Below, one piece after another: positions 1-37,354 of a stretch of 37,354 bases of DNA (positions within the stretch are counted from its first letter, which is position 1; each line of letters begins with the position of its first letter). A program made the translations under genes and the position numbers. This DNA is from Oscillatoriales cyanobacterium PMM_0080. GTDB lineage: Bacteria > Cyanobacteriota > Cyanobacteriia > Cyanobacteriales > Microcoleaceae. The stretch covers positions 1 to 37,354 of the forward strand of contig CASBQF010000074.1 in NCBI GenBank assembly GCA_949127775.1, in the 5' to 3' direction. The notes under the pieces are model-generated. The model did not search any database. It saw only the letters and a list, made by a program, of their open reading frames with translations, and was not told the DNA's origin.

Positions 1-408
1 GAAGAATACGGCAACCGCACGAAAGTTAAAGTTGCTAAAAATAAAGTTGCTCCGCCTTTCCGCATTGCCGAATTTGACATTGTATTCGGCAAAGGCATTT
101 CTACATTAGGCTGTCTGACTGACTTAGCCGACGAAATGGGAGTAATTCTGAAAAAAGGTTCTTGGTATAGCTACAACGGCGAAAACATAGCTCAAGGACG
201 AGACAAAGTGATCCAACACATGGAGAAAAATGTCGATTTCAAAAATGAAATTGAGCAGCTAGTTAAAAAGAAACTGGAGACTGGTGCTGTGGTTTCTGCT
301 AATTCTGTCGCTCCTGTTGATCCTGATTTAGATGATGATGTTGATGATGATGTTGATGATGATGTTGATGCTGTAGAAGATATGGAAGATTTGGGAGAAG
401 AAATCTAA
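1..408 (+). CDS. recA: RecA recombinase, C-terminal 135 residues (cut by window edge)
   Basis: This is the 3' end of recA, the DNA-dependent ATPase that forms the strand-exchange filament and triggers SOS responses. The frame is open from base 1; the methionine at 136 is internal. The visible part begins after the ATPase core, runs through the [13 protein letters not shown] segment and the [12 protein letters not shown] region, then the C-terminal domain with [18 protein letters not shown], matching RecA closely. It ends in a strongly acidic tail with three DDDV units and then [13 protein letters not shown]. Acidic tails are usual in RecA and modulate DNA binding, but here the tail is built from a 12-base tandem repeat. 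A T-rich run follows the stop codon. The ATP-binding region lies outside the window. Confidence 0.95.
331..366 (+). repeat. Three 12-base repeats coding the acidic RecA tail
   Basis: GATGATGATGTT occurs three times in perfect tandem (331-342, 343-354, 355-366), each unit coding DDDV. Because the unit is 12 bases, a change in copy number would lengthen or shorten the acidic tail without shifting the frame. Confidence 0.9.
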
Positions 409-433
409 GTTTTTTAGTCCTCAATTATTACTC

Positions 434-582
434 ATTTACTGGTTGTTTACTCGTTTTACTCGTTACTTTCGCCGTACCGCGAAAGTAACGCTCAACAGCG
501 ACAAGCGAGCCTCGAATTGAATTTTCCCTCGGCTCGCTTGTCGCTTACATGAATGAGAGGCACAGCCAGTAAACCAGTAAAT
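434..582. repeat. Palindromic, MITE-like element between recA and yefM
   Basis: The outer inverted repeats ATTTACTGGTT (434-444) and AACCAGTAAAT (572-582) are perfect over 11 bp. Inside are two perfect hairpins: a 12-bp stem CGTTACTTTCGC (461-472 with 479-490, 6-base loop) and a 14-bp stem GCGACAAGCGAGCC (498-511 with 531-544). There is no convincing ORF. The nested design resembles a small non-autonomous element, and the first hairpin could also serve as the recA terminator. No target-site duplication was identified. Confidence 0.6.
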
Positions 583-608
583 TGACCGAACCTGATATGA
601 GATCGGGA

Positions 609-637
609 TTGCCGAATATATTGCGGATTGGTATACT
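609..637 (+). promoter_or_regulatory. Candidate promoter of yefM-yoeB
   Basis: TTGCCG (609-614) and TATACT (632-637) are separated by 17 bases, a good match to a sigma-70-type promoter. The predicted start falls about 20-30 bases before the yefM ATG, inside the TGTACA-containing operator, as expected for an autoregulated toxin-antitoxin operon. Confidence 0.55.
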
Positions 638-667
638 TGTACAGTAAGTAGTACAAATGTCAAGTAC
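637..667. promoter_or_regulatory. Candidate YefM operator with TGTACA core
   Basis: TTGTAC (637-642) and GTACAA (651-656) form an inverted repeat, with TGTACA at 638-643 and a further GTAC at 664-667. E. coli YefM is known to bind palindromes with a TGTACA core. The site lies just downstream of the -10 box and ends at the yefM start codon, well placed for repression. Confidence 0.55.
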
Positions 668-922
668 ATGAATATTGTTTCTTTTAGCGAAGCGAGAACT
701 AACCTCAAGGCTGTTTTAGACAGAGTAGTCGAAGATACGGACTATACCATCATCACTAGACGGGATGCAGACGATGCCGTGGTGATGTCCCTAGAGTTTT
801 TTAATAGTTTGCTGGAAACAGTTCATTTACTCAAATCTCCCGCCAATGCTACCCATTTGGAGCGTTCTATTGCTCAGTTTAAGCAGGGGAAAGTGGTAGA
901 GCGAAATTTGTTGGATGACTAG
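668..922 (+). CDS. yefM: YefM antitoxin (Phd/YefM family)
   Basis: This 84-residue protein is the antitoxin and autorepressor of a type II toxin-antitoxin pair. The N-terminal part (MNIVSFSEARTNLKAVLD, then TDYTIITRRDADDAVVMSLEFFNSL) has the Phd/YefM DNA-binding and dimerisation fold pattern. The C-terminal tail (LKSPANATHLERSIAQFKQG) is the expected toxin-binding segment. The ATG at 668 is preferred because it begins the canonical MNIVSFSEAR start; no clear Shine-Dalgarno sequence is visible, so the message may have a very short leader. It overlaps the toxin gene by 8 bases (915-922), typical of translational coupling. Length is normal for the family. Confidence 0.93.
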   Translation: MNIVSFSEARTNLKAVLDRVVEDTDYTIITRRDADDAVVMSLEFFNSLLETVHLLKSPANATHLERSIAQFKQGKVVERNLLDD

Positions 923-1181
923 AAAGTTAGCATGGACGGATGAGGCTTGGGGCGATTATTTATATTGGCAAGGGCAAGACAAGAAAACATTAAAACGAAT
1001 TAACAAGCTAATTGAGGCAACAATCCGATTGCCCTTTGAGGGGATCGGAAAGCCAGAACCACTGAGGGAGAATCTGGCTGGTTTTTGGTCGCGGCGAATT
1101 GATGATACGAATCGATTAGTTTATGCTGTGGATGATGAGTATCTAACGATTATCTCTTGTCGATACCACTATTCTGATTGA
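915..1181 (+). CDS. yoeB: YoeB toxin, ribosome-dependent mRNA interferase
   Basis: This 88-residue RelE-superfamily toxin cleaves mRNA in the ribosomal A site when freed from YefM. It contains the diagnostic WGDYLYWQGQDKK, PFEGIGKPEPL, GFWSRRI, NRLVYAV and CRYHY blocks of YoeB. The residues matching E. coli Glu46, Arg65 and His83 are Glu48, Arg67 and His85, followed by Tyr86, so the active site looks complete. The antitoxin gene precedes and overlaps it by 8 bases. A strong hairpin repeat begins 15 bases after the stop codon and may end transcription. Confidence 0.95.
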   Translation: MTRKLAWTDEAWGDYLYWQGQDKKTLKRINKLIEATIRLPFEGIGKPEPLRENLAGFWSRRIDDTNRLVYAVDDEYLTIISCRYHYSD

Positions 1182-1196
1182 CATCCTCCTTGGCGA

Positions 1197-1259
1197 GGAC
1201 ACTCAAGATGCCGTTTCCCTACAATCGATCGCGGTAGGGAAACGGCATCTTGAGTGTCC
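1197..1259. repeat. Dispersed hairpin repeat A, copy 1 (26-bp perfect stem)
   Basis: Arms 1197-1222 and 1234-1259 pair perfectly over 26 bp around an 11-base AT/CG-rich loop. The outer ends read GGACAC and GTGTCC and the inner ends CCCTAC and GTAGGG. It belongs to a family with copies at 1287-1307 (half), 2987-3046, 3121-3180, 3263-3311 and 4675-4736. It could act as a terminator for yefM-yoeB, though no U-tract follows. Confidence 0.85.
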
Positions 1260-1286
1260 AATCTTGCTTGTTAAACCTTGACTGAT

Positions 1287-1307
1287 ACGGCAGTGCCGTT
1301 TCCCTAC
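1287..1307. repeat. Half copy of hairpin repeat A
   Basis: ACGGCAGTGCCGTTTCCCTA matches the left-arm core of the copy at 4675, but no right arm follows. It looks like a truncated member of the family, sitting in the 270-base gap before the nitrate transporter gene. Confidence 0.7.
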
Positions 1308-1374
1308 AATAATCATGATCAAATACGATATCTGCACGGAATTGATGCGCTAGTTTTAGTTTTCTGAATAAAAA

Positions 1375-1388
1375 GTAGCGAAGGATAC
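1375..1388 (+). promoter_or_regulatory. Candidate NtcA-binding site upstream of nrtP
   Basis: GTA (1375-1377), eight bases, TAC (1386-1388) exactly fits the NtcA consensus GTA-N8-TAC, with the frequent A after TAC. It lies 64 bases before the transporter ATG. NtcA activates nitrate-assimilation genes in cyanobacteria. The best -10 words (TAATCT at 1421, TATTAT at 1428) are further downstream than the usual ~22 bases, which lowers confidence. Confidence 0.5.
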
Positions 1389-1451
1389 AATTTTTTGTCG
1401 CAACATTAATTAAGAATTAATAATCTGTATTATTTCTTAGGATAACTTAAT

Positions 1452-2936
1452 ATGCTTCAAGGGCTTTTATCATTCAGAGGGCCTTTTCGGATTCTGAACC
1501 TGAGTTGGTTTGCTTTTTTCTTAACATTCATCGTGTGGTTTAACTACGCGCCCTTCAGCACAACGGTGCAGCAAGATTTGGGTTTGTCGATCGGGCAAGC
1601 GAGAATCATCAGTCTGTGCAACCTAGCCCTCACCATTCCTGCCAGCATCATTATTGGTATGTTGCTCGATCGCTTCGGGCCCCGCATCACCTTCTCTTCA
1701 ATCCTAGTCTACGCAGCATTTCCCACCCTGGCATTCGCCTGCGCCCAAGACTTCAACCAGTTGGTTTTGAGCCGTTTGGCAATGGGCATAGTCGGTTCTG
1801 GATTCGTGGTTGGCATCCGCTTAGTCACCGAATGGTTTCCCCCAGAAGAGATCGGATTCGCTCAAGGTATCTATGCCGGCTGGGGCAACTTTGGTTCCTT
1901 TGCCGCCGAAGCAGTGTTACCGTCGATCGCCGCAGCAACCGCTTTTCTCTCAGTCGGCGAAACCAATTGGCGATTGACGATCGCCCTTACCGGCATAGCC
2001 GCAGCAATTTTCGGAGTCATTTTTTACTTCAATGTTCAAGATACACCCCCCGGCAAAGTCTATCAGCGCCCAGCCCGTAACGGCGCAATGGAAGTCACCA
2101 GCGCTCAAAGTTTTTGGGCATTATTGCTCGCCAACATTCCTTTATTTGGCGCCTTAGCCTTAATTGTGTGGCGCTTGCAGAAAGCAGATTTTCTGACAAC
2201 AAATATCATGTACGGCATTTGGGCAGGTTTGATAGCACTCTATTTAATTCAGGCTTACAAAACCTGGGAAGTTAACCGAGAAGTGGTGACTGGCCAAAAA
2301 GATTACCCAACTGAAAAACGCTATCAAATCAGTCAAGTATTCGTATTACAACTAGCCTATGCCGTCACCTTTGGTTCTGAAATCGCTGTGGTGTCAATGC
2401 TACCAGAATTTTTCGAGAACACCTTCAACTTAAATCAGGCGATCGCCGGCCCAATAGCAGCCATGTTTCCCCTGATGAACTTGATCAGTCGTCCCACCGG
2501 AGGCTTAATTTCCGACAAAATCGGCAGTCGCAAATGGACGCTAACATTTCTGATCGCCGGAGTAGCATTAGGCTATTTAACCCTGAGCCAAATTACGGCT
2601 AATTGGCCATTACCCGTTGTGGTTGTCACGATCATGTTCTGTGCCTTCTTCGTCTTCGGTGCCGCAGGTGCAACCTTTGGCATCGTCTCTTTAATTAAAC
2701 GAGAAGTAACTGGTCAAATTGCGGGAAATGTCGGTGCTTACGGCAGTGTCGGCGCTGTAACTTATGCCACATTTTATAGCTTTCTGCCCCAAGAAATTGC
2801 CGGGAATCACACCTTTTTTCAGGTACTTGGAGGTGCGGCTGCGATCGTCTGCTTGCTTTGCGTTTTGATCCTGAAAGAACCGAAGACTTCTGAAAGCGAA
2901 GAGTTAGTAAAGGAAGCTGTGCTGGCAGGTCATTAA
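1452..2936 (+). CDS. nrtP: NarK/NrtP-family nitrate/nitrite transporter (MFS)
   Basis: This 494-residue polytopic membrane protein belongs to the major facilitator nitrate-nitrite porter family and probably imports nitrate. The loop motif GMLLDRFGPR sits after helix 2 (about residues 70-80). The first nitrate-signature region reads AGWGNFGSFAAE and the second GNVGAYGSVGAVTY. The second-half loop has ISRPTGGLISDKIGSRKW. About twelve hydrophobic segments are apparent and the C-tail is hydrophilic. The ATG at 1452 has AGGA nine bases upstream. An NtcA-type site upstream implies nitrogen control. No nir or nar genes adjoin it in this window. A 134-bp tandem duplication starts within its last codons. 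Nitrate is inferred from family membership; nitrite transport is also possible. Confidence 0.9.
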   Translation: MLQGLLSFRGPFRILNLSWFAFFLTFIVWFNYAPFSTTVQQDLGLSIGQARIISLCNLALTIPASIIIGMLLDRFGPRITFSSILVYAAFPTLAFACAQDFNQLVLSRLAMGIVGSGFVVGIRLVTEWFPPEEIGFAQGIYAGWGNFGSFAAEAVLPSIAAATAFLSVGETNWRLTIALTGIAAAIFGVIFYFNVQDTPPGKVYQRPARNGAMEVTSAQSFWALLLANIPLFGALALIVWRLQKADFLTTNIMYGIWAGLIALYLIQAYKTWEVNREVVTGQKDYPTEKRYQISQVFVLQLAYAVTFGSEIAVVSMLPEFFENTFNLNQAIAGPIAAMFPLMNLISRPTGGLISDKIGSRKWTLTFLIAGVALGYLTLSQITANWPLPVVVVTIMFCAFFVFGAAGATFGIVSLIKREVTGQIAGNVGAYGSVGAVTYATFYSFLPQEIAGNHTFFQVLGGAAAIVCLLCVLILKEPKTSESEELVKEAVLAGH

Positions 2937-3191
2937 AGACCAAATCCGGTTTTTAAGAGCATCGGAATTAATATTACCCGCCGTCAGGACACGGCAATGC
3001 CATGTCCCTACAATTAATTGGGTAGGGAAACGGCATTGCCGTGTCCTCCTCTATTTTGGTAGGTCACTAACAACCAAATCCGGTTTTTAAGAGCATCAGA
3101 ATTAATATTACCCGCCGTCAGGAGACGGCAATGCCGTGTCCCTACAATTAATTGGGTAGGGAAACGGCATTGCCGTCTCCTCCTCTATTTG
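2924..3191. repeat. 134-bp tandem duplication including the 3' end of nrtP
   Basis: Unit 1 (2924-3057) and unit 2 (3058-3191) align end to end with a constant 134-base offset and few substitutions. Unit 1 begins in the last codons of nrtP (GGCAGGTCATTAA); unit 2 carries the matching non-coding GGTAGGTCACTAA. Each unit contains one copy of hairpin repeat A (2987-3046 and 3121-3180) preceded by GAATTAATATTACCCGCCGT. The outer stem ends are GGACAC/GTGTCC in unit 1 and GGAGAC/GTCTCC in unit 2, so both arms changed together. Confidence 0.88.
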
Positions 3192-3215
3192 TAGGGTGCG
3201 CACGGCGCACCTTAC
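3191..3215. repeat. Short palindromic repeat B (GTAGGGTGCGC...GCGCACCTTAC)
   Basis: A 25-base near-palindrome whose centre is GGTGCGC-acg-GCGCACC. Related copies lie at 4820-4844, 9869-9889, 9967-9988 and 13898-13922. Confidence 0.7.
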
Positions 3216-3262
3216 ACTATTGGTAGTTTAAAAAAATAAAATTTGCGTAGAAATGATATAGA

Positions 3263-3311
3263 GGAGACGGCATTGCCGTGTCCCTACGCCCGATTAATTG
3301 TAGCCGTCTCC
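3263..3311. repeat. Damaged copy of hairpin repeat A
   Basis: The left arm (3263-3287) is complete, from GGAGACGG to CCCTAC. The right arm (3300-3311) reads GTAGCCGTCTCC and lacks about 13 internal bases compared with intact copies. It lies at the end of the repeat cluster downstream of nrtP. Confidence 0.7.
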
Positions 3312-3340
3312 TAATTTGGGCTACTAATAATTCCGATGCT

Positions 3341-3441
3341 AAGCTGTCCTGCATTTAAATTGCATATCAAAAAAAATCAAACAATGAGTGGGATGGGCGT
3401 CCCGCCCGTCCTAAATATACAATTTAAAGGTGCGACAGCTT
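3341..3441. repeat. MITE-like element with ~22-bp imperfect terminal inverted repeats
   Basis: The left end (AAGCTGTCCTGCATTTAAAT, 3341-3360) matches the reverse complement of the right end (TTTAAAGGTGCGACAGCTT, to 3441) with a few mismatches. The interior holds GGGATGGGCGTCCCGCCCGT, a member of the GGGATGGGC repeat family also found at 11995-12062. No ORF lies inside. A non-autonomous element or a nested repeat insertion fits. Confidence 0.6.
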
Positions 3442-3883
3442 ACCGGATTTGATATCAAATCTGCTAAACTTCACCCTACTTCAGCTCTCTTCAACTCGCT
3501 TTACTTACCTTCCCCGGGATCGCTGGTGTACACGCTTCAACTTCTAACTCATTGCAGCTTCAAATAATTAGCAGGAAAATAAATTTATATACGTAAGTAA
3601 AGGAGTTCAGATTCCCGCTAAATACTGTGGATTTTACGGGTGTTTCCCAGTCGGTTAAGTTGCGGTAACTAACACTCTGCCGATTTTGACAACTGGCCGA
3701 TTTCACATCTGAGAGTGTTTGTAAAGAAATATAAAAGCTCCGGAAACTTAATTACTGTGACAGAAGGTAGGATTTCTAAGCTGAACCTATAGAAAAGTCG
3801 TATTGATTCATTGCAAAAATGAACTTTTGAAATACGAATTTAACTGACGATAAACTTAGTTTCTTGTTCTAGGGAAATAGATT
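3442..3883. other. Non-coding gap before the Coq4-like gene
   Basis: No supported ORF or RNA gene. A perfect 16-bp palindrome GATTTGATATCAAATC lies at 3446-3461. An 8-bp inverted pair (AACACTCT and AGAGTGTT, near 3670 and 3711) encloses about 35 bases. The last 20 bases carry AGGGAAA, a plausible ribosome-binding site for the next gene. The promoter is not resolved. Confidence 0.5.
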
Positions 3884-4357
3884 ATGGCTGACGGTCAATT
3901 AGGAGTTATATTAAGGATGGCTCAAATAATTAATCCTCAAATTGAGAGCGATCGACACTTTGAAATCGATTTAGAAAAATTGCGGCAACTGCCAGCAGGA
4001 ACGTTAGGGTGCGAAGTGGCGCGATTTCTAGACGAACAAGGCTTTGAACCGATCGCATCGGGAGACTGGATTCAGCGAAACCACGACGTTTGGCACGTTC
4101 TGACGGCTCTGTCACCTTCAACTGAAGATGAATTTGTACTTCAAGCGTTTACTCGCGCTCAAGTATTTCGCCCTTCCTGTGCAATTTTAGTATTAGTTGG
4201 ACTGATCAGTGGCAAATGTGCGATCGGACAAATTATCAAAGGCTTAAAATATGGAAAATTAGCCGATCGACTAATTGACTGGAATCCTGAATCCGATTGG
4301 GAGACTCCTTTATCTGAAGTCAGAAAAAAGCTGGGCATTCTACTATTAAATGACTAA
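3884..4357 (+). CDS. Coq4-family protein
   Basis: This 157-residue soluble protein carries the Coq4 signature HDxxH-x11-E: His67, Asp68, His71 and Glu83, within RNHDVWHVLTALSPSTEDE. It is preceded by RQLPAGTLGCEVARFLDEQGF, also Coq4-like, and followed by a helical region rich in hydrophobic residues. In eukaryotes Coq4 organises the ubiquinone biosynthesis complex and the motif binds metal. Cyanobacteria make plastoquinone rather than ubiquinone, so the role here is unknown; quinone or lipid binding is only an inference. It is shorter than typical Coq4 (over 200 residues) at the N-terminus. The ATG at 3884 follows AGGGAAA, and a stop codon lies in frame six bases upstream. A LuxR-type gene starts 29 bases downstream, probably co-transcribed. 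Confidence 0.75.
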   Translation: MADGQLGVILRMAQIINPQIESDRHFEIDLEKLRQLPAGTLGCEVARFLDEQGFEPIASGDWIQRNHDVWHVLTALSPSTEDEFVLQAFTRAQVFRPSCAILVLVGLISGKCAIGQIIKGLKYGKLADRLIDWNPESDWETPLSEVRKKLGILLLND

Positions 4358-4386
4358 ATTTTAACTGGTAACAGCACTCCAAAACT

Positions 4387-4611
4387 ATGCAAAGCACAAT
4401 TTACAAACCGGTTGTCAGTCTGAGTCCACGGGAAAAGGCGATCGCGCAATTAGTCGCCCAAGGCCTACCAAACAAATGTATCGCCAAAAATTTAAACATC
4501 AGTCACTGGACGGTTGCTACTTACGTAAGGCGGATTTTTATCAAACTCGGTGTTTGTTCCAGAACAGCCATGATTGCACTCTTGATCAGAGAAAATTTGC
4601 TCTGGGATTAA
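4387..4611 (+). CDS. Stand-alone LuxR-type HTH regulator
   Basis: This 74-residue protein is almost entirely a LuxR/GerE DNA-binding domain: SLSPREKAIAQLVAQGLPNK (about residues 11-30), then CIAKNLNISHWTVATYVRRI with the recognition helix, then FIKLGVCSRTAMIALLI. There is no receiver, PAS or ligand-binding domain, so any signal input must come from elsewhere. Small LuxR-only proteins of this kind occur in cyanobacteria, for example PedR. The Cys at the GVCSR position stands where many homologues have another residue; a redox role is speculative. It lies 29 bases after the Coq4-like gene on the same strand. No strong Shine-Dalgarno sequence is seen. Confidence 0.8.
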   Translation: MQSTIYKPVVSLSPREKAIAQLVAQGLPNKCIAKNLNISHWTVATYVRRIFIKLGVCSRTAMIALLIRENLLWD

Positions 4612-4646
4612 AGATTTTGGGCCCAATGCTCTTGGGCATAATATCA

Positions 4647-4665
4647 ATTCCGGCTGCGCCGGAAT
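4647..4665. repeat. Small hairpin after the LuxR-type gene
   Basis: ATTCCGGC-TGC-GCCGGAAT forms a perfect 8-bp stem with a 3-base loop, 36 bases after the stop codon. It could help end transcription, although no T-run follows. Confidence 0.5.
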
Positions 4666-4674
4666 GACAAGCGA

Positions 4675-4736
4675 GGACACGGCAGTGCCGTTTCCCTACG
4701 CCAAATTAATTGTAGGGAAACGGCACTGCCGTGTCC
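4675..4736. repeat. Dispersed hairpin repeat A (25-bp perfect stem)
   Basis: Arms 4675-4699 and 4712-4736 pair perfectly over 25 bp around a 12-base loop. TAATATTAATTC follows at 4747-4758; its reverse complement precedes the copies downstream of nrtP, so the mobile or copied unit may include this flank. It lies between two convergent genes. Confidence 0.85.
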
Positions 4737-4819
4737 GGATTTCGGATAATATTAATTCGCCCTGCAACCGGAATCGATCTAACTTCTTTTTCTTCCTTGT
4801 TGCTTGTTTATCTAAAAAA

Positions 4820-4861
4820 GTAGGGTGCGCATTGCGCACCTTACTAATAGAGTGTGTGCGT
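4820..4861. repeat. Palindromic repeat B with GAGTGTGTGCG flank
   Basis: The core is GGTGCGCA-T-TGCGCACC. Its flank AGAGTGTGTGCG matches, in opposite orientation, the flank of the copy at 13882-13922, so the repeat unit is at least about 41 bp. It lies just past the 3' end of the hydrolase gene. Confidence 0.7.
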
Positions 4862-4894
4862 AAGTCCGTTCTCATTTCCAAGTTTTCAAAGCTT

Positions 4895-5794
4895 CTAAGT
4901 CACAGCCAAAGAAGGAGAAGAATTTCTCAGAAAACTCAGCAATTCTCGATTCACCGTTTGTGGTGCTTCCTGCTGAATCCAGTGACCGCAATTCGGAACT
5001 AATTTTAACTGAAATGGAGCCGTAATTAACCTATCTAAACCTTCTACAAGTTTATGGCTCAAAAACGCATCTTCTTCTCCCCAAAGCACCAAGGTAGGAA
5101 CATTCACCATTTCCCATTTTTGCCCCAAATTCCACATTCTCTGCGGATGAAACATTTGTCGGTAATAATTGATCGCGGCGCTTAATACTCCCGGTTTTTC
5201 TAAAGCATCCTGATAAATCTTAGTTTCTTCCGCACTAAAAGCTCCTTTGCGAACCGCTTGTCCTTGAAAAACATTGTGGACAAAATCTTTCAAGTTTTGC
5301 CGAATTAACCATTCAGGAATACCGGGAACCTGAAAAGCCAAAACGTACCAACTGCGCCGAAGTTGATCTAAATTACTCGCCATTTCCTGCACAAATCGCT
5401 GCGGGTGCGGAGCGTTTAAAATTGCCAAGCGGTTGAGTTTTTCGGGAAATTTTTGAGCTAAATGCCATGCAATTGCGCCTCCCCAATCGTGACCGACAAT
5501 GTGAGCCTTTGTATAGCCGAGTCGATCGATCAAACCCCGAATATCCGCACTCAGCGTATCCAAATCATAACCGCTTTCCGGCTTATCCGAATCGTTGTAG
5601 CCCCGCAAATCCGGCACCACAACCTTGAAATGACGCGCTAAAGCAGGGATTTGATGGCGCCAAGAGTACCAAAACTCGGGAAACCCGTGCAGGAGGATAA
5701 CCAGCTCGCCTTCCCCTTGAGCAACGCAGTGCAGGCGGATGTTGTTGGTTTCGACAAAGATGTGTTGTTGCTGTTGGGAATCTAAAGATTTCAT
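4895..5794 (-). CDS. Alpha/beta hydrolase, epoxide-hydrolase-like
   Basis: This 299-residue protein has the alpha/beta-hydrolase fold and the pattern of epoxide hydrolases or haloalkane dehalogenases. HGFPEFWYSWRHQ gives the oxyanion-hole region (about residues 36-47), GHDWGGAIAW places the nucleophile Asp at about 103, LWGEEDAF the acid Asp at about 242, and NCGHWIQQEAP the base His at about 271. The cap contains NYYRQMF, where epoxide hydrolases carry a ring-opening Tyr. There is no signal peptide, so it is probably cytoplasmic. The ATG at 5794 is chosen because homologues begin shortly before the first strand; a GTG at 5836 would add 14 residues. Neither start has a clear Shine-Dalgarno sequence. 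The substrate cannot be told from sequence. Confidence 0.9.
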   Translation of the reverse strand: MKSLDSQQQQHIFVETNNIRLHCVAQGEGELVILLHGFPEFWYSWRHQIPALARHFKVVVPDLRGYNDSDKPESGYDLDTLSADIRGLIDRLGYTKAHIVGHDWGGAIAWHLAQKFPEKLNRLAILNAPHPQRFVQEMASNLDQLRRSWYVLAFQVPGIPEWLIRQNLKDFVHNVFQGQAVRKGAFSAEETKIYQDALEKPGVLSAAINYYRQMFHPQRMWNLGQKWEMVNVPTLVLWGEEDAFLSHKLVEGLDRLITAPFQLKLVPNCGHWIQQEAPQTVNRELLSFLRNSSPSLAVT

Positions 5795-5836
5795 AGTGGG
5801 AAAGTTAGACTTATTTTCGGGAAGTACAGAATCCAC

Positions 5837-6201
5837 CGACTTGTAGCAGATGAGTACAAATAAACATTAGGAGATGGGAGAGGGCGGGTTTTGCCTTTAT
5901 ATTCTGGCTTGTATCACAGATTCTTAGAGATGGGAAAGAGGGCGGGTTTTGCCTTTATATTCTCGCTTTTCTCATAGATTCTTAGCTAAACCCGCCCCTA
6001 CCAGATACTATTGTTTTTTTGCCATTATCTACTTAGTCGGCTGAAACGACCCAATGGTTTTAATGTTTCTGCTTATATTATAGCTGTTTTTGGCTCTCTG
6101 TCGCTGTAATCTAATTAAACTTAAAACTTGTAGGGTTTTGCAGTGTCCGTTTTTTTAGGTGTAACTACTTATCTCAAATTTAGTGATTGAAATCAGTTGT
6201 T
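5837..6201. repeat. Non-coding gap with ~57-bp tandem duplication (5871-5985)
   Basis: Two adjacent units (5871-5926 and 5927-5985) share GAGATGGGA, AGGGCGGGTTTTGCC, TTTATATTCT and AGATTCTTAG, with small length differences. CTAAACCCGCCCCTACC after them is partly complementary to GGGCGGGTTT in the units, allowing alternative hairpins. On the minus strand TATAAT (6077-6082) could be a -10 box for the hydrolase gene, but no good -35 box is seen. Confidence 0.65.
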
Positions 6202-7743
6202 TTAACAGCGGCGGAGGCGATTCAATAATAGCACAATTTCGTCAGTTGCCGATCGCACTTTTGCAGCAGACAGTTCAGATTGATTGACGATAATGCTAAA
6301 TACCAGCGGCTCGTAATTCGCAACTTCGATATATCCCGACAGCGCCGAAACTCCGCTCAAAGTTCCAGTTTTTGCTTGCAAAATTACGCGGTTTGGTGTA
6401 TTGTTAATGCGATTTTTTAAAGTACCGCTTTCGCCAGCCACGGGCAGTGACGCGCGATAAATAGATCCAGCAGGTGAATTCGCCATCAATTTCAAAGTTT
6501 GCACCAAGGCTTCTGGACTAATTAAATTGTGGCGCGAAAGTCCCGAACCGTCGGCCAATATGTAGCTGTTTGGATTTACCCCTAATTGAGTTAAAGCTGT
6601 TTTTAACTCCTTTAAACCAATTTCACCTGTATCCTCTTGTGGCACAGGCATCTTGCCTGTGACTGTTTGTGGGACAGGCATCTTGCCTGTGACTTTCCCC
6701 AACAACCTCAATAAAACTTCTGCATAAAGATTGTTACTTTCCCGATTGGTTTCCTTCACCAACTCCGCCAGCGGTGGCGATTCAACAAAGGCTAATTCCT
6801 GATTGAAATTGCGAGAACTAGATGCAACTACAGCTTGTTTGACAGGGATTCCTTCAGCTACCAAAAATTGCTGAAAATGCTGCAAAAAATTGTTGGCGGG
6901 ATTGACAACTGCGACATAAGCTGATTCAGATTCCGCACCAACTTTCAACTGTCCGCCAACTCGAATTGCAGGCCGATCGAACTCCCGGCCAACTTCAATA
7001 AACTCCGATTCATTTTGAGAGACGGTGACTGAATTGTTCTGAATTTGCCACTGATTGGCTAACTTTGGTTCGGCAAAAGAGACTTTCAGAGGTTGCCCGA
7101 TCGCCTGTGGAGACAAAACAAGCTCGATCGCATTTTGATTGAAAATTAAACTGTTAATCGGCGCGCCATAGCCAGCTTGCGCGTCTTCCCATTCCCAATT
7201 CGGATTGACTGCATCGCCTTGAAAATAGCTGTCATCGCCAATCAACTGATTAACTTGACTAATGCCGCGCCCTTTTAACTGCTGAGCCAAGGATTTCAAC
7301 TGAGCCTCCGCAATGCTCGGATCGCCCCTCCCAGCAACATACAAATTACCATTTTCGCCACTATAAACCGATGTCTTAATCCGAAAATCTGCACCGAGTT
7401 TCTGCAAAGCAGCGGCTGTGGTTAGCAGCTTGACATTTGATGCTGGAATGAAATATTTGGCGGCGTCGCGGCTGTAGAGAGTCGCCGTAGATGATAGCGG
7501 TTGAATCAAAATACCCCAACGCGATCGGCTAAATTCAGCACGATCGGCGATCGCATCAACTTTCGCCCCCAATTCCCCAGGACAAATATCCCCAGCAACC
7601 GTAGCCGTTTGAGCGACTACCTGCACCGGATGCCCCAGAATTAGCACTAACAAACTAACCGCAATTCCTTTAATTCTCAAAGCGCAATTTCCATAATCAC
7701 TATTTAAATTAGATGCGCCAGAGCTGTGAATTGGCACTTTCAT
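6202..7743 (-). CDS. dacB: D-Ala-D-Ala carboxypeptidase/endopeptidase, PBP4 (S13) family
   Basis: This 513-residue exported penicillin-binding protein trims or cross-cuts peptidoglycan peptides in the periplasm. A hydrophobic stretch (about residues 27-40) ending VVAQ suggests a signal peptide. The three active-site motifs are present: SNVK (Ser102, Lys105), SNN in RESNNLYAEVLLR, and KTG starting at about Lys458. A long insert between the first two motifs is typical of PBP4. Around residues 350-370 two tandem TGKMPVPQ blocks are coded by a dispersed DNA repeat. The ATG at 7743 is preferred over a TTG just before it. It follows the ferredoxin-like gene by 10 bases on the same strand, so the two are probably co-transcribed. 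Confidence 0.92.
   Translation of the reverse strand: MKVPIHSSGASNLNSDYGNCALRIKGIAVSLLVLILGHPVQVVAQTATVAGDICPGELGAKVDAIADRAEFSRSRWGILIQPLSSTATLYSRDAAKYFIPASNVKLLTTAAALQKLGADFRIKTSVYSGENGNLYVAGRGDPSIAEAQLKSLAQQLKGRGISQVNQLIGDDSYFQGDAVNPNWEWEDAQAGYGAPINSLIFNQNAIELVLSPQAIGQPLKVSFAEPKLANQWQIQNNSVTVSQNESEFIEVGREFDRPAIRVGGQLKVGAESESAYVAVVNPANNFLQHFQQFLVAEGIPVKQAVVASSSRNFNQELAFVESPPLAELVKETNRESNNLYAEVLLRLLGKVTGKMPVPQTVTGKMPVPQEDTGEIGLKELKTALTQLGVNPNSYILADGSGLSRHNLISPEALVQTLKLMANSPAGSIYRASLPVAGESGTLKNRINNTPNRVILQAKTGTLSGVSALSGYIEVANYEPLVFSIIVNQSELSAAKVRSATDEIVLLLNRLRRC
6641..6692. repeat. Two in-frame copies of the ACAGGCATCTTGCCTGT hairpin repeat inside dacB
   Basis: ACAGGCATCTTGCCTGT occurs twice with a 30-base period. 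On the coding strand each period gives VTGKMPVPQ plus one residue. The sequence resembles the GGGATGGGCATCTTGCCCGT repeats in non-coding DNA at 11995-12062, so a dispersed repeat appears to have entered dacB without breaking the frame. Confidence 0.8.
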
Positions 7744-7753
7744 CAAGTCAAAA

Positions 7754-8080
7754 CTAATAATAGTAACGCATATGAATTCTCGGATTGAACAGCGCCTCTA
7801 CAGGTTTTCCGCCTTTGAGGTGCTCTTCCACAATCAACGGTACATCACTCGGTTTAACTCGACAATACCAGATTTCGTCTGGGGTGACTCGCACAGTCGG
7901 GCCAGTGTTGCACTGTCCCTGACAGCTACAGGCTTCAATTGTCACTCCTGGAACCGGTTGGGCTTCAAAAGCAGCTAGCACTGCTTCTGAACCACTTTTT
8001 AGGCAAGATTGATACTGGCAAACCAATACACGGCGGGTTTCTGCTTGGGAGTCTGGTTTTGAGGCGGGAGATTGGGACAT
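7754..8080 (-). CDS. 2Fe-2S thioredoxin-like ferredoxin domain protein
   Basis: This 108-residue small soluble protein resembles thioredoxin-fold [2Fe-2S] ferredoxins and NuoE-like domains. Cys21 and Cys26 (CQYQSC) and the CSCQGQC segment (Cys51, 53, 57) followed by NTGPTVRV supply the usual cluster-ligand pattern: two Cys near the first strand, two in a CxxxC-type block. About 15 residues before the domain are polar and probably disordered, and the C-terminus ends in Tyr residues. The ATG at 8080 is the only good start. It precedes dacB by 10 bases and diverges from the CBS gene. Its redox partner is unknown. Confidence 0.82.
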   Translation of the reverse strand: MSQSPASKPDSQAETRRVLVCQYQSCLKSGSEAVLAAFEAQPVPGVTIEACSCQGQCNTGPTVRVTPDEIWYCRVKPSDVPLIVEEHLKGGKPVEALFNPRIHMRYYY

Positions 8081-8327
8081 CGGTAAGGATTTATCGGCTG
8101 TTTAATTTATCTTAACCATGTTGTCAGGTCGATCGCCCGCACGCTTCTAAACACAGGGCAGAATTCGTGAGTGCGATCGCAAAAACCTCTCAAATTATGG
8201 CATTCAAACTTTTCGCCTCCTTCTCTTCTTGTAACGAATCGCTTCTGCATGGCTGCCTTTATTCAGTCTGTGTCACGCTTTCCCTATATGATCGGATTTG
8301 AAGCAAAAACTCAATCAACCGCCAATC
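8081..8327. other. Divergent promoter region, ferredoxin-like and CBS genes
   Basis: This 247-base gap must hold the leftward promoter of the ferredoxin-dacB pair and the rightward promoter of the CBS gene. A HIP1 octamer GCGATCGC lies at 8173-8180. No convincing -35/-10 pair or known operator was recognised. Confidence 0.5.
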
Positions 8328-8998: not shown

Positions 8999-9012
8999 AA
9001 ATTTAAAATCTA

Positions 9013-29274: not shown

Positions 29275-29601
29275 ATGTCCCAATCTCCCGCCTCAAAACC
29301 AGACTCCCAAGCAGAAACCCGCCGTGTATTGGTTTGCCAGTATCAATCTTGCCTAAAAAGTGGTTCAGAAGCAGTGCTAGCTGCTTTTGAAGCCCAACCG
29401 GTTCCAGGAGTGACAATTGAAGCCTGTAGCTGTCAGGGACAGTGCAACACTGGCCCGACTGTGCGAGTCACCCCAGACGAAATCTGGTATTGTCGAGTTA
29501 AACCGAGTGATGTACCGTTGATTGTGGAAGAGCACCTCAAAGGCGGAAAACCTGTAGAGGCGCTGTTCAATCCGAGAATTCATATGCGTTACTATTATTA
29601 G
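29275..29601 (+). CDS. 2Fe-2S thioredoxin-like ferredoxin domain protein, mirror copy
   Basis: 108 residues with CQYQSC and CSCQGQC cysteine clusters. ATG at 29275; the dacB copy starts 10 bases after its stop codon. Confidence 0.82.
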   Translation: MSQSPASKPDSQAETRRVLVCQYQSCLKSGSEAVLAAFEAQPVPGVTIEACSCQGQCNTGPTVRVTPDEIWYCRVKPSDVPLIVEEHLKGGKPVEALFNPRIHMRYYY

Positions 29602-29611
29602 TTTTGACTTG

Positions 29612-31153: not shown

Positions 31154-31560
31154 AACAACTGATTTCAATCACTAAATTTGAGATAAGTAGTTACACCTAA
31201 AAAAACGGACACTGCAAAACCCTACAAGTTTTAAGTTTAATTAGATTACAGCGACAGAGAGCCAAAAACAGCTATAATATAAGCAGAAACATTAAAACCA
31301 TTGGGTCGTTTCAGCCGACTAAGTAGATAATGGCAAAAAAACAATAGTATCTGGTAGGGGCGGGTTTAGCTAAGAATCTATGAGAAAAGCGAGAATATAA
31401 AGGCAAAACCCGCCCTCTTTCCCATCTCTAAGAATCTGTGATACAAGCCAGAATATAAAGGCAAAACCCGCCCTCTCCCATCTCCTAATGTTTATTTGTA
31501 CTCATCTGCTACAAGTCGGTGGATTCTGTACTTCCCGAAAATAAGTCTAACTTTCCCACT
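31154..31560. repeat. Gap with ~57-bp tandem duplication (31370-31484), mirror copy
   Basis: Two units with AAAACCCGCCCTC and AGAATATAAAGGC words. TATAAT at 31273-31278 could be a -10 box for the hydrolase gene, but no -35 box is evident. Confidence 0.6.
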
Positions 31561-32460
31561 ATGAAATCTTTAGATTCCCAACAGCAACAACACATCTTTG
31601 TCGAAACCAACAACATCCGCCTGCACTGCGTTGCTCAAGGGGAAGGCGAGCTGGTTATCCTCCTGCACGGGTTTCCCGAGTTTTGGTACTCTTGGCGCCA
31701 TCAAATCCCTGCTTTAGCGCGTCATTTCAAGGTTGTGGTGCCGGATTTGCGGGGCTACAACGATTCGGATAAGCCGGAAAGCGGTTATGATTTGGATACG
31801 CTGAGTGCGGATATTCGGGGTTTGATCGATCGACTCGGCTATACAAAGGCTCACATTGTCGGTCACGATTGGGGAGGCGCAATTGCATGGCATTTAGCTC
31901 AAAAATTTCCCGAAAAACTCAACCGCTTGGCAATTTTAAACGCTCCGCACCCGCAGCGATTTGTGCAGGAAATGGCGAGTAATTTAGATCAACTTCGGCG
32001 CAGTTGGTACGTTTTGGCTTTTCAGGTTCCCGGTATTCCTGAATGGTTAATTCGGCAAAACTTGAAAGATTTTGTCCACAATGTTTTTCAAGGACAAGCG
32101 GTTCGCAAAGGAGCTTTTAGTGCGGAAGAAACTAAGATTTATCAGGATGCTTTAGAAAAACCGGGAGTATTAAGCGCCGCGATCAATTATTACCGACAAA
32201 TGTTTCATCCGCAGAGAATGTGGAATTTGGGGCAAAAATGGGAAATGGTGAATGTTCCTACCTTGGTGCTTTGGGGAGAAGAAGATGCGTTTTTGAGCCA
32301 TAAACTTGTAGAAGGTTTAGATAGGTTAATTACGGCTCCATTTCAGTTAAAATTAGTTCCGAATTGCGGTCACTGGATTCAGCAGGAAGCACCACAAACG
32401 GTGAATCGAGAATTGCTGAGTTTTCTGAGAAATTCTTCTCCTTCTTTGGCTGTGACTTAG
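31561..32460 (+). CDS. Alpha/beta hydrolase, epoxide-hydrolase-like, mirror copy
   Basis: 299 residues from ATG 31561 (GTG at 31519 is the longer option). HGFPEFWYSW, GHDWGGA, LWGEEDAF and GHWIQQEAP mark the oxyanion hole and the Asp-Asp-His triad. Confidence 0.89.
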   Translation: MKSLDSQQQQHIFVETNNIRLHCVAQGEGELVILLHGFPEFWYSWRHQIPALARHFKVVVPDLRGYNDSDKPESGYDLDTLSADIRGLIDRLGYTKAHIVGHDWGGAIAWHLAQKFPEKLNRLAILNAPHPQRFVQEMASNLDQLRRSWYVLAFQVPGIPEWLIRQNLKDFVHNVFQGQAVRKGAFSAEETKIYQDALEKPGVLSAAINYYRQMFHPQRMWNLGQKWEMVNVPTLVLWGEEDAFLSHKLVEGLDRLITAPFQLKLVPNCGHWIQQEAPQTVNRELLSFLRNSSPSLAVT

Positions 32461-32493
32461 AAGCTTTGAAAACTTGGAAATGAGAACGGACTT

Positions 32494-32535
32494 ACGCACA
32501 CACTCTATTAGTAAGGTGCGCAATGCGCACCCTAC
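32494..32535. repeat. Palindromic repeat B with flank, mirror copy
   Basis: CGCACACACTCTATTAGTAA followed by GGTGCGCAATGCGCACC, just past the hydrolase stop codon. Confidence 0.7.
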
Positions 32536-32618
32536 TTTTTTAGATAAACAAGCAACAAGGAAGAAAAAGAAGTTAGATCGATTCCGGTTGCAGGGCGAAT
32601 TAATATTATCCGAAATCC

Positions 32619-32680
32619 GGACACGGCAGTGCCGTTTCCCTACAATTAATTTGGCGTAGGGAAACGGCACTGCCGTGTCC
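32619..32680. repeat. Hairpin repeat A (25-bp stem), mirror copy
   Basis: Perfect 25-bp stem with GGACAC/GTGTCC outer ends; the small ATTCCGGC hairpin adjoins at 32690-32708. Confidence 0.85.
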
Positions 32681-32743
32681 TCGCTTGTCATTCCGGCGCA
32701 GCCGGAATTGATATTATGCCCAAGAGCATTGGGCCCAAAATCT

Positions 32744-32968
32744 TTAATCCCAGAGCAAATTTTCTCTGATCAAGAGTGCAATCATGGCTGTTCTGGAACA
32801 AACACCGAGTTTGATAAAAATCCGCCTTACGTAAGTAGCAACCGTCCAGTGACTGATGTTTAAATTTTTGGCGATACATTTGTTTGGTAGGCCTTGGGCG
32901 ACTAATTGCGCGATCGCCTTTTCCCGTGGACTCAGACTGACAACCGGTTTGTAAATTGTGCTTTGCAT
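32744..32968 (-). CDS. Stand-alone LuxR-type HTH regulator, mirror copy
   Basis: 74 residues, nearly all LuxR/GerE HTH (SLSPREKAIAQL...NISHWTVATYV...KLGVCSRT). It follows the Coq4-like gene by 29 bases. Confidence 0.79.
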   Translation of the reverse strand: MQSTIYKPVVSLSPREKAIAQLVAQGLPNKCIAKNLNISHWTVATYVRRIFIKLGVCSRTAMIALLIRENLLWD

Positions 32969-32997
32969 AGTTTTGGAGTGCTGTTACCAGTTAAAAT

Positions 32998-33471
32998 TTA
33001 GTCATTTAATAGTAGAATGCCCAGCTTTTTTCTGACTTCAGATAAAGGAGTCTCCCAATCGGATTCAGGATTCCAGTCAATTAGTCGATCGGCTAATTTT
33101 CCATATTTTAAGCCTTTGATAATTTGTCCGATCGCACATTTGCCACTGATCAGTCCAACTAATACTAAAATTGCACAGGAAGGGCGAAATACTTGAGCGC
33201 GAGTAAACGCTTGAAGTACAAATTCATCTTCAGTTGAAGGTGACAGAGCCGTCAGAACGTGCCAAACGTCGTGGTTTCGCTGAATCCAGTCTCCCGATGC
33301 GATCGGTTCAAAGCCTTGTTCGTCTAGAAATCGCGCCACTTCGCACCCTAACGTTCCTGCTGGCAGTTGCCGCAATTTTTCTAAATCGATTTCAAAGTGT
33401 CGATCGCTCTCAATTTGAGGATTAATTATTTGAGCCATCCTTAATATAACTCCTAATTGACCGTCAGCCAT
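32998..33471 (-). CDS. Coq4-family protein, mirror copy
   Basis: 157 residues with the Coq4 metal motif HDVWH plus Glu83. ATG at 33471 after AGGGAAA. Confidence 0.74.
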   Translation of the reverse strand: MADGQLGVILRMAQIINPQIESDRHFEIDLEKLRQLPAGTLGCEVARFLDEQGFEPIASGDWIQRNHDVWHVLTALSPSTEDEFVLQAFTRAQVFRPSCAILVLVGLISGKCAIGQIIKGLKYGKLADRLIDWNPESDWETPLSEVRKKLGILLLND

Positions 33472-33913
33472 AATCTATTTCCCTAGAACAAGAAACTAAG
33501 TTTATCGTCAGTTAAATTCGTATTTCAAAAGTTCATTTTTGCAATGAATCAATACGACTTTTCTATAGGTTCAGCTTAGAAATCCTACCTTCTGTCACAG
33601 TAATTAAGTTTCCGGAGCTTTTATATTTCTTTACAAACACTCTCAGATGTGAAATCGGCCAGTTGTCAAAATCGGCAGAGTGTTAGTTACCGCAACTTAA
33701 CCGACTGGGAAACACCCGTAAAATCCACAGTATTTAGCGGGAATCTGAACTCCTTTACTTACGTATATAAATTTATTTTCCTGCTAATTATTTGAAGCTG
33801 CAATGAGTTAGAAGTTGAAGCGTGTACACCAGCGATCCCGGGGAAGGTAAGTAAAGCGAGTTGAAGAGAGCTGAAGTAGGGTGAAGTTTAGCAGATTTGA
33901 TATCAAATCCGGT

Positions 33914-34014
33914 AAGCTGTCGCACCTTTAAATTGTATATTTAGGACGGGCGGGACGCCCATCCCACTCATTGTTTGATTTTTTTTGATATGCAATTTAA
34001 ATGCAGGACAGCTT
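33914..34014. repeat. MITE-like element, mirror copy
   Basis: Imperfect ~22-bp terminal inverted repeats (AAGCTGTCGCACC... and ...GCAGGACAGCTT) around a GGACGGGCGGGACGCCCATC core. Confidence 0.6.
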
Positions 34015-34163
34015 AGCATCGGAATTATTAGTAGCCCAAATTAGGAGACGGCTACAATTAATCGGGCGTAGGGACACGGCAATGCCGTCTCCTCTATATC
34101 ATTTCTACGCAAATTTTATTTTTTTAAACTACCAATAGTGTAAGGTGCGCCGTGCGCACCCTA

Positions 34164-34431
34164 CAAATAGAGGAGGAGACGGCAATGCCGTTTCCCTACC
34201 CAATTAATTGTAGGGACACGGCATTGCCGTCTCCTGACGGCGGGTAATATTAATTCTGATGCTCTTAAAAACCGGATTTGGTTGTTAGTGACCTACCAAA
34301 ATAGAGGAGGACACGGCAATGCCGTTTCCCTACCCAATTAATTGTAGGGACATGGCATTGCCGTGTCCTGACGGCGGGTAATATTAATTCCGATGCTCTT
34401 AAAAACCGGATTTGGTCTTTAATGACCTGCC
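34164..34431. repeat. 134-bp tandem duplication at the nrtP 3' end, mirror copy
   Basis: Two 134-base units (34164-34297 and 34298-34431), the second entering the last codons of the nrtP copy. A damaged hairpin A copy (34044-34092) and a repeat B copy (34140-34164) adjoin. Confidence 0.87.
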
Positions 34432-35903
34432 AGCACAGCTTCCTTTACTAACTCTTCGCTTTCAGAAGTCTTCGGTTCTTTCAGGATCAAAACGCAAAGC
34501 AAGCAGACGATCGCAGCCGCACCTCCAAGTACCTGAAAAAAGGTGTGATTCCCGGCAATTTCTTGGGGCAGAAAGCTATAAAATGTGGCATAAGTTACAG
34601 CGCCGACACTGCCGTAAGCACCGACATTTCCCGCAATTTGACCAGTTACTTCTCGTTTAATTAAAGAGACGATGCCAAAGGTTGCACCTGCGGCACCGAA
34701 GACGAAGAAGGCACAGAACATGATCGTGACAACCACAACGGGTAATGGCCAATTAGCCGTAATTTGGCTCAGGGTTAAATAGCCTAATGCTACTCCGGCG
34801 ATCAGAAATGTTAGCGTCCATTTGCGACTGCCGATTTTGTCGGAAATTAAGCCTCCGGTGGGACGACTGATCAAGTTCATCAGGGGAAACATGGCTGCTA
34901 TTGGGCCGGCGATCGCCTGATTTAAGTTGAAGGTGTTCTCGAAAAATTCTGGTAGCATTGACACCACAGCGATTTCAGAACCAAAGGTGACGGCATAGGC
35001 TAGTTGTAATACGAATACTTGACTGATTTGATAGCGTTTTTCAGTTGGGTAATCTTTTTGGCCAGTCACCACTTCTCGGTTAACTTCCCAGGTTTTGTAA
35101 GCCTGAATTAAATAGAGTGCTATCAAACCTGCCCAAATGCCGTACATGATATTTGTTGTCAGAAAATCTGCTTTCTGCAAGCGCCACACAATTAAGGCTA
35201 AGGCGCCAAATAAAGGAATGTTGGCGAGCAATAATGCCCAAAAACTTTGAGCGCTGGTGACTTCCATTGCGCCGTTACGGGCTGGGCGCTGATAGACTTT
35301 GCCGGGGGGTGTATCTTGAACATTGAAGTAAAAAATGACTCCGAAAATTGCTGCGGCTATGCCGGTAAGGGCGATCGTCAATCGCCAATTGGTTTCGCCG
35401 ACTGAGAGAAAAGCGGTTGCTGCGGCGATCGACGGTAACACTGCTTCGGCGGCAAAGGAACCAAAGTTGCCCCAGCCGGCATAGATACCTTGAGCGAATC
35501 CGATCTCTTCTGGGGGAAACCATTCGGTGACTAAGCGGATGCCAACCACGAATCCAGAACCGACTATGCCCATTGCCAAACGGCTCAAAACCAACTGGTT
35601 GAAGTCTTGGGCGCAGGCGAATGCCAGGGTGGGAAATGCTGCGTAGACTAGGATTGAAGAGAAGGTGATGCGGGGCCCGAAGCGATCGAGCAACATACCA
35701 ATAATGATGCTGGCAGGAATGGTGAGGGCTAGGTTGCACAGACTGATGATTCTCGCTTGCCCGATCGACAAACCCAAATCTTGCTGCACCGTTGTGCTGA
35801 AGGGCGCGTAGTTAAACCACACGATGAATGTTAAGAAAAAAGCAAACCAACTCAGGTTCAGAATCCGAAAAGGCCCTCTGAATGATAAAAGCCCTTGAAG
35901 CAT
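34419..35903 (-). CDS. nrtP: NarK/NrtP-family nitrate/nitrite transporter, mirror copy
   Basis: 494 residues, MFS nitrate-porter blocks GMLLDRFGPR, AGWGNFGSFAAE and GNVGAYGSVGAVTY. ATG at 35903 with AGGA nine bases upstream. Confidence 0.89.
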   Translation of the reverse strand: MLQGLLSFRGPFRILNLSWFAFFLTFIVWFNYAPFSTTVQQDLGLSIGQARIISLCNLALTIPASIIIGMLLDRFGPRITFSSILVYAAFPTLAFACAQDFNQLVLSRLAMGIVGSGFVVGIRLVTEWFPPEEIGFAQGIYAGWGNFGSFAAEAVLPSIAAATAFLSVGETNWRLTIALTGIAAAIFGVIFYFNVQDTPPGKVYQRPARNGAMEVTSAQSFWALLLANIPLFGALALIVWRLQKADFLTTNIMYGIWAGLIALYLIQAYKTWEVNREVVTGQKDYPTEKRYQISQVFVLQLAYAVTFGSEIAVVSMLPEFFENTFNLNQAIAGPIAAMFPLMNLISRPTGGLISDKIGSRKWTLTFLIAGVALGYLTLSQITANWPLPVVVVTIMFCAFFVFGAAGATFGIVSLIKREVTGQIAGNVGAYGSVGAVTYATFYSFLPQEIAGNHTFFQVLGGAAAIVCLLCVLILKEPKTSESEELVKEAVLAGH

Positions 35904-35966
35904 ATTAAGTTATCCTAAGAAATAATACAGATTATTAATTCTTAATTAATGTTGCGACAAAAAATT

Positions 35967-35980
35967 GTATCCTTCGCTAC
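35967..35980 (-). promoter_or_regulatory. Candidate NtcA-binding site, mirror copy
   Basis: GTA-N8-TAC read on the minus strand, 64 bases before the nrtP copy's start codon. Confidence 0.5.
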
Positions 35981-36095
35981 TTTTTATTCAGAAAACTAAA
36001 ACTAGCGCATCAATTCCGTGCAGATATCGTATTTGATCATGATTATTGTAGGGAAACGGCACTGCCGTATCAGTCAAGGTTTAACAAGCAAGATT

Positions 36096-36158
36096 GGACA
36101 CTCAAGATGCCGTTTCCCTACCGCGATCGATTGTAGGGAAACGGCATCTTGAGTGTCC
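36096..36158. repeat. Hairpin repeat A (26-bp stem), mirror copy
   Basis: Perfect 26-bp stem with an 11-base loop, 15 bases beyond the yoeB copy's stop codon; a half copy lies at 36048-36068. Confidence 0.85.
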
Positions 36159-36173
36159 TCGCCAAGGAGGATG

Positions 36174-36440
36174 TCAATCAGAATAGTGGTATCGACAAGA
36201 GATAATCGTTAGATACTCATCATCCACAGCATAAACTAATCGATTCGTATCATCAATTCGCCGCGACCAAAAACCAGCCAGATTCTCCCTCAGTGGTTCT
36301 GGCTTTCCGATCCCCTCAAAGGGCAATCGGATTGTTGCCTCAATTAGCTTGTTAATTCGTTTTAATGTTTTCTTGTCTTGCCCTTGCCAATATAAATAAT
36401 CGCCCCAAGCCTCATCCGTCCATGCTAACTTTCTAGTCAT
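36174..36440 (-). CDS. yoeB: YoeB toxin, mirror copy
   Basis: 88 residues with YoeB blocks GFWSRRI, NRLVYAV and CRYHY and intact catalytic Glu48, Arg67 and His85. It overlaps the yefM copy by 8 bases. Confidence 0.94.
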   Translation of the reverse strand: MTRKLAWTDEAWGDYLYWQGQDKKTLKRINKLIEATIRLPFEGIGKPEPLRENLAGFWSRRIDDTNRLVYAVDDEYLTIISCRYHYSD

Positions 36441-36687
36441 CCAACAAATTTCGCTCTACCACTTTCCCCTGCTTAAACTGAGCAATAGAACGCTCCAAAT
36501 GGGTAGCATTGGCGGGAGATTTGAGTAAATGAACTGTTTCCAGCAAACTATTAAAAAACTCTAGGGACATCACCACGGCATCGTCTGCATCCCGTCTAGT
36601 GATGATGGTATAGTCCGTATCTTCGACTACTCTGTCTAAAACAGCCTTGAGGTTAGTTCTCGCTTCGCTAAAAGAAACAATATTCAT
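36433..36687 (-). CDS. yefM: YefM antitoxin, mirror copy
   Basis: 84 residues, MNIVSFSEARTNLKAVLD start typical of Phd/YefM antitoxins; ATG at 36687 directly after the TGTACA-type operator. Confidence 0.92.
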   Translation of the reverse strand: MNIVSFSEARTNLKAVLDRVVEDTDYTIITRRDADDAVVMSLEFFNSLLETVHLLKSPANATHLERSIAQFKQGKVVERNLLDD

Positions 36688-36746
36688 GTACTTGACATTT
36701 GTACTACTTACTGTACAAGTATACCAATCCGCAATATATTCGGCAA
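36688..36746 (-). promoter_or_regulatory. yefM-yoeB promoter and operator, mirror copy
   Basis: On the minus strand TTGCCG, 17 bases and TATACT (36718-36746) lead into the TTGTAC/GTACAA operator (36688-36718). Confidence 0.52.
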
Positions 36747-36772
36747 TCCCGATCTCATATCAGGTTCGGTCA

Positions 36773-36921
36773 ATTTACTGGTTTACTGGCTGTGCCTCTC
36801 ATTCATGTAAGCGACAAGCGAGCCGAGGGAAAATTCAATTCGAGGCTCGCTTGTCGCTGTTGAGCGTTACTTTCGCGGTACGGCGAAAGTAACGAGTAAA
36901 ACGAGTAAACAACCAGTAAAT
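36773..36921. repeat. Palindromic MITE-like element, mirror copy
   Basis: 11-bp outer inverted repeats and two inner hairpins (14-bp stem 36811-36857, 12-bp stem 36865-36894) between the yefM and recA copies. Confidence 0.6.
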
Positions 36922-36946
36922 GAGTAATAATTGAGGACTAAAAAAC

Positions 36947-37354
36947 TTAGATTTCTTCTCCCAAATCTTCCATATCTTCTACAGCATCAACATCATCATC
37001 AACATCATCATCAACATCATCATCTAAATCAGGATCAACAGGAGCGACAGAATTAGCAGAAACCACAGCACCAGTCTCCAGTTTCTTTTTAACTAGCTGC
37101 TCAATTTCATTTTTGAAATCGACATTTTTCTCCATGTGTTGGATCACTTTGTCTCGTCCTTGAGCTATGTTTTCGCCGTTGTAGCTATACCAAGAACCTT
37201 TTTTCAGAATTACTCCCATTTCGTCGGCTAAGTCAGTCAGACAGCCTAATGTAGAAATGCCTTTGCCGAATACAATGTCAAATTCGGCAATGCGGAAAGG
37301 CGGAGCAACTTTATTTTTAGCAACTTTAACTTTCGTGCGGTTGCCGTATTCTTC
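36947..37354 (-). CDS. recA: RecA recombinase, C-terminal 135 residues, mirror copy (cut by window edge)
   Basis: Same RecA C-terminal domain and DDDV-repeat acidic tail, broken at exactly the same base as the copy at position 1. That shared breakpoint is part of the evidence that the duplication is not an independent biological event. Confidence 0.94.

Follow-up and report, generated by a model that had tools for sequence, protein, structure and literature searches.

We analysed the whole of contig C74 (37,354 bases; hereafter the window), which belongs to G000, a draft genome of 6,361,364 bases in 431 contigs with a listed completeness of 96%, some of whose short contigs read as N. The window is one uninterrupted palindrome, and we conclude that it is almost certainly an assembly artefact: an ordinary contig that doubled back at a short palindrome occurring naturally within the gene tamB, with no giant palindrome in the chromosome. 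The tamB part of the window matched 14 loci, with named relatives including Microcoleus, Tychonema, Lyngbya, and other cyanobacteria, and same-genus genomes showed 70 to 86% protein identity to it (longest pieces, of at least 840 residues). Judged from these relatives, the source is probably a Microcoleus-group cyanobacterium.

At each of its 37,354 positions the window is identical to its reverse complement, with 0 mismatches and no N. Two copies of 18,677 bp meet without a spacer at an axis between positions 18677 and 18678, as the first-pass annotation had described. It had also placed both outer ends at the same base of recA, and this holds: window bases 1 and 37354 are the contig ends (the outermost two loci have a flank on the inner side only), and both fall within recA at the same base. 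Ends of this kind would be identical because the assembly walk starts at a dead end in recA, folds at the axis, and returns. The remainder of recA was not found in the bin, where the RecA profile gave just two C-terminal pieces, both on C74 (E <= 0.001); this absence, like those of the tamB junction and of a telomere resolvase reported below, comes from searches that may miss 12 of the 120 fetched contigs, all shorter than 3,000 bases, that read as N.

The rest of tamB lies on another contig of the same assembly, C232 (locus L055), where the gene resumes at the exact base at which C74 folds. We refer to window positions 1-18677 as arm A and to C232 from base 48 as B, with A' and B' for their reverse complements. 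C232 opens with a 94-base perfect palindrome, a 47-base fold-back with the same centre as the C74 axis, and then continues into tamB. When a relative was compared, its tamB 3' part had a counterpart starting at base 47 of C232, whose first 48 bases matched the same stretch reversed. Joined directly, A and B read in frame to give a protein of 2,229 amino acids (aa), with 87.6% identity over 2,236 alignment columns, end to end, to the protein of locus L010. The gene is named tamB because its 3' part on C232 matches Pfam TamB; the 5' part alone had no Pfam family match. On C74 the frame enters the axis and then continues as its own antisense.

A comparison of tamB with related genomes had been proposed as a check, and in it the gene continued uninterrupted across the axis. 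An open frame of at least 2,217 aa was present in 19 of 23 other same-genus genomes, the other four giving fragments or no match. In all seven relatives compared, the stretches matching A and B were separated by 0 to 15 bases, and in L011 and L021 they met at adjacent bases. Arm A matched the tamB region of the seven in the same order, to the limit of the fetched flanks, and the tamB of B (2.9 kb) was collinear with all of them and matched to its end. A 40-mer across A-B was absent from both C74 and C232, and a 33-base A-B pattern was not found in the assembly. The real A-B junction is missing, and A-A' and B'-B stand in its place.

We took three features to mark an artefactual palindromic contig: a palindrome that fills the contig without divergence, relatives that run straight across the axis, and a true continuation elsewhere in the same assembly. 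All three were found, the last in that C232 carries the tamB 3' part from its base 48 onwards. A real giant inverted duplication would have its two arms leading into different unique flanks, and these were not found. An artefact had earlier been put forward as the simpler explanation, and the resumption of tamB on C232, the uninterrupted relatives, and the failure to find A-B bear this out. Palindromic contigs have been judged likely artefacts in cyanobacterial single-cell genomes (PMC12755884) and in M. bovis genomes, where 81 such contigs were identified (PMC9455707), and C74 resembles them in being a draft-assembly contig that is an exact palindrome from end to end. Unlike those contigs, for which the excerpts cited here name no seeding site, C74 has its axis on a natural 26-bp palindrome and a sister contig with the complementary fold. 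Other kinds of assembly error are the subject of PMC7111523, in the part cited.

The first-pass annotation had seen no special site at the axis, and on this point it has to be corrected. The axis is the centre of a natural, zero-spacer, perfect palindrome of 26 bp (18665-18690) within tamB, which emerges on joining A to C232 from base 48 (arm 13). This seed is masked by the giant palindrome and therefore becomes visible only against relatives and C232; neither it nor the mirrored stub on C232 was seen in the first pass. Its arms paired at 13 of 13 positions in seven of 22 relatives, as in the window's own A-B, and at 5 to 12 positions in the other 15. These 22 relatives are the rows of alignment A1, from which the window (locus L023) was left out, as was L041, which reaches only 14 bases past the axis though it also pairs at 13 of 13; loci resembling one contig under two handles were counted once, and L020 and L021 come from one record set. 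The 400 bases around the axis had no match in a phage collection, where a phage origin was looked for.

Palindromes of this kind are rare in the contigs sampled from the assembly. Our sample comprised 120 of the 431 contigs, 12 of which read as N and 108 of which were readable (first 20 kb only for 32 long contigs), and its 1,338,033 readable bases held only 19 perfect palindromes with arms of at least 13, that of C232 included. An axis meeting one by chance is therefore roughly a 1-in-70,000 event per position. Three of the 19, among them that of C232, lay within 60 bases of one of the 184 contig ends examined, where 0.16 would be expected. Arms longer than 26 occurred in just two palindromes, of 47 on C232 and 37 on contig C419, both running from base 1 of their contig, as would be expected of fold-back stubs.

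Two further observations concern these palindromes. Contig C419 (L156) opens with a perfect palindrome with 37-base arms (1-74), which may be another fold-back stub formed at a palindromic repeat. Of the 19 long palindromes in the sample, 15 belong to an interspersed palindromic repeat that has no spacer and has the core AATTCATGAATT; it is mostly flanked by GGGGC/GCCCC, has arms up to 26 away from contig starts, and occurs at L055:6767, L073:13846, L074:3693, L089:2618, L098:4172, L133:7753, and other sites, with double copies at or near some contig starts.

In the real chromosome A almost certainly passes directly into B, and the 26-bp palindrome inside tamB consists of 13 bases from the end of A followed by 13 from the start of B. 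The assembly instead ran from A into its own reverse complement (A-A') and back to the recA dead end, and B separately received its 47-base stub (B'-B). The fold may have originated in fold-back fragments arising at the palindrome during library preparation, or a low-k stage of a multi-k assembler may have handed a folded contig upwards.

The type of assembly bears on these two origins. Among 16 overlapping pairs of contig ends, an overlap of exactly 119 bases was the commonest (six pairs), and the remaining 10 overlapped by 20 to 118 bases, two of them being a contig end with itself. According to the excerpt of the COBRA paper cited here, such overlaps equal maxK for metaSPAdes and MEGAHIT and maxK-1 for IDBA_UD (PMC10914622). 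The final k was therefore probably 119 or 120, and the recurrence of 119-base overlaps suggests short-read k-mer assembly. A toy graph of the true locus contained fold-back edges at k = 21, 23, 25, and 27 and none at k = 29, 39, 59, 79, 99, or 119. From this final k and the lack of fold-back edges at the tested values of at least 29, we infer that the fold must have entered through fold-back library fragments or a folded low-k contig. The PDSM model, in the part cited, describes chimeric library reads in which a strand is fused at a natural palindrome to its reverse complement (PMC10908179); those chimeras are soft-clipped reads in human capture libraries, whereas C74 is a whole contig.

Several results weigh against an assembly fold seeded by the palindrome. 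Palindromes with arms up to 26 were traversed elsewhere in the assembly without folding, so length alone does not explain folding at tamB. No second large palindromic contig was found among the 108 readable contigs of the 431, and in none of these did a sampled 100-mer recur in the contig's reverse complement. The matches of C232 to relatives end where tamB ends (after base 2990), and over its remaining 11,270 bases no match longer than 200 bases was seen to the downstream flanks fetched for 12 relatives, whereas all 66 pairs of those flanks have at least some hundreds of bases in common. The downstream stretch of L010 had only paralogue-like matches of 66-75% and short repeats in G000, with no close match. 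Past tamB, C232 encodes a histidine kinase, response regulators with cyclase or DNA-binding domains, HisG, GST, and a metallophosphatase. This region is either a real rearrangement in the lineage or another assembly fault, and the tamB part of C232 is unaffected by the mismatch further downstream.

A related reading, to which we give a very small chance, is that the fold is partly real in cells: nascent strands would repeatedly switch template at the tamB palindrome, some chromosomes in the population would carry true A-A' and B'-B fold-back ends, and the same process would homogenise the arms across the genus. The arms do change together in the 22 relatives, with 29 cells changed on both sides where shuffles gave 13.8 (0 of 500 reaching that value) and a covariation score of 0.253 against at most 0.085 for slid partners; relatedness was not removed from these statistics. 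The number of pairs with a double change was not above shuffles in these relatives (206 of 500 as high), and further pair types were weakly above them (32 of 500). Template-switch homogenisation is a possible source of this covariation, and shared ancestry may be another. Template switching between inverted-repeat arms in coding sequence has been studied in yeast (PMC8604942, in the part cited). At the protein level, the encoded residues often change in pairs (R..L, T..V, and S..D in most perfect or near-perfect cases, with L039 R..D and L011 T..A as exceptions).

Smaller still is the chance that the chromosome really carries a 37 kb head-to-head inverted duplication, produced by template switching at the tamB palindrome. 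Short palindromes are able to seed inverted duplications in vivo, the sequence as assembled has this form, and the departure of C232 from relatives past tamB makes a rearrangement near tamB in this lineage possible. With such a duplication, tamB would be interrupted and the remainder of the gene would sit elsewhere, yet C232 picks up at the axis and carries a fold of its own. No unique flank is reached at either outer end; both ends halt at the same recA base, and the arms have 0 differences. Long palindromes are cut by SbcCD, and two G000 proteins scored above the SbcD cut-off.

We consider an artefact independent of the short palindrome, for example a long read with a missed adapter, or a random amplification chimera, to be just as improbable as the duplication. 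Reads of this kind can yield spacerless palindromes. Fold-back long reads are the topic of PMC12870357, as far as the cited part goes. Against this stand the natural palindrome on which the axis sits and the fold on the other side, as well as the overlaps of 119 bases and the short-read k-mer assembly that they suggest. The artefact favoured in the first pass is supported; of the causes listed there, the missed-adapter long read seems the least likely given those overlaps.

Least probable of all is a telomere resolvase that acts at the tamB palindrome and leaves covalently closed hairpin ends, so that reading round each hairpin would give A-A' and B'-B: two folded ends from one palindrome would be the expected look of resolvase products, a likeness to the protelomerase hairpin telomeres of PMC3558466 (in the part cited), but the ResT/TelK catalytic domain (PF16684) was found neither in G000 nor in any of the 14 other same-genus genomes searched, a cut here would disrupt a gene that is unbroken in relatives, whose sequence runs through this site, and 15 of 22 relatives have only an imperfect form of the palindrome. 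Elsewhere, locus L157 of a same-order cyanobacterium (G032) carries PF16684 in a 698-aa frame (E 5.7e-48), and a control genome, Synechococcus elongatus, also had a match above the cut-off.

The features of the window, read as a contig folded at the tamB palindrome, are collected in Table 1. Besides recA and tamB, arm A encodes an MFS transporter, a Coq4-like protein, an alpha/beta hydrolase, a D-Ala-D-Ala carboxypeptidase, CBS-domain and HEAT-repeat proteins, a CAP/RTX protein, a SIS-domain protein, and a DUF3110 protein, with one borderline Vps10-like match. In the TamB protein of the window (14927-18677), the stretch NLKSKIQNLKS recurs in frame and resembles a translation of short DNA repeats. 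The short stretches 1195-1259 and 2923-3000 of the window match dozens of places in the genome, some on both strands, and are interspersed repeat families.

Table 1. Coordinates of features in the 37,354-base window (contig C74).
Feature	Coordinates	Strand	Evidence
A arm, real sequence: recA 3' end to tamB 5' part	1..18677	+	Relatives' tamB region, 7/7
Mirror copy of 1-18677, almost certainly artificial	18678..37354	-	0 mismatches to reverse complement; relatives without a fold here
26-bp axis stretch, identical to the natural perfect tamB palindrome that almost certainly seeded the fold	18665..18690	.	Arm 13 (A vs C232); 13/13 paired in 7/22 relatives
tamB 5' part cut by the fold, 1,250 codons + 1 base	14927..18677	+	Long frame in same-genus genomes; C232 3' part
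False continuation of the tamB frame, reading its own sequence in antisense	18678..19561	+	Frame reads on past the axis
Mirror copy of tamB 5' part	18678..22428	-	Exact palindrome
recA 3' end cut by contig end	1..408	+	RecA profile
Mirror copy of recA 3' end	36947..37354	-	Exact palindrome and RecA profile

The mirror copy duplicates the 3' end of recA and the other genes of the arm and creates a false tamB frame of 1,544 aa, and it could be misread as gene duplication. The finding matters as a warning, not as biology. It offers a simple diagnosis for palindromic contigs, namely a natural short palindrome at the axis in relatives together with a sister contig folded from the other side.

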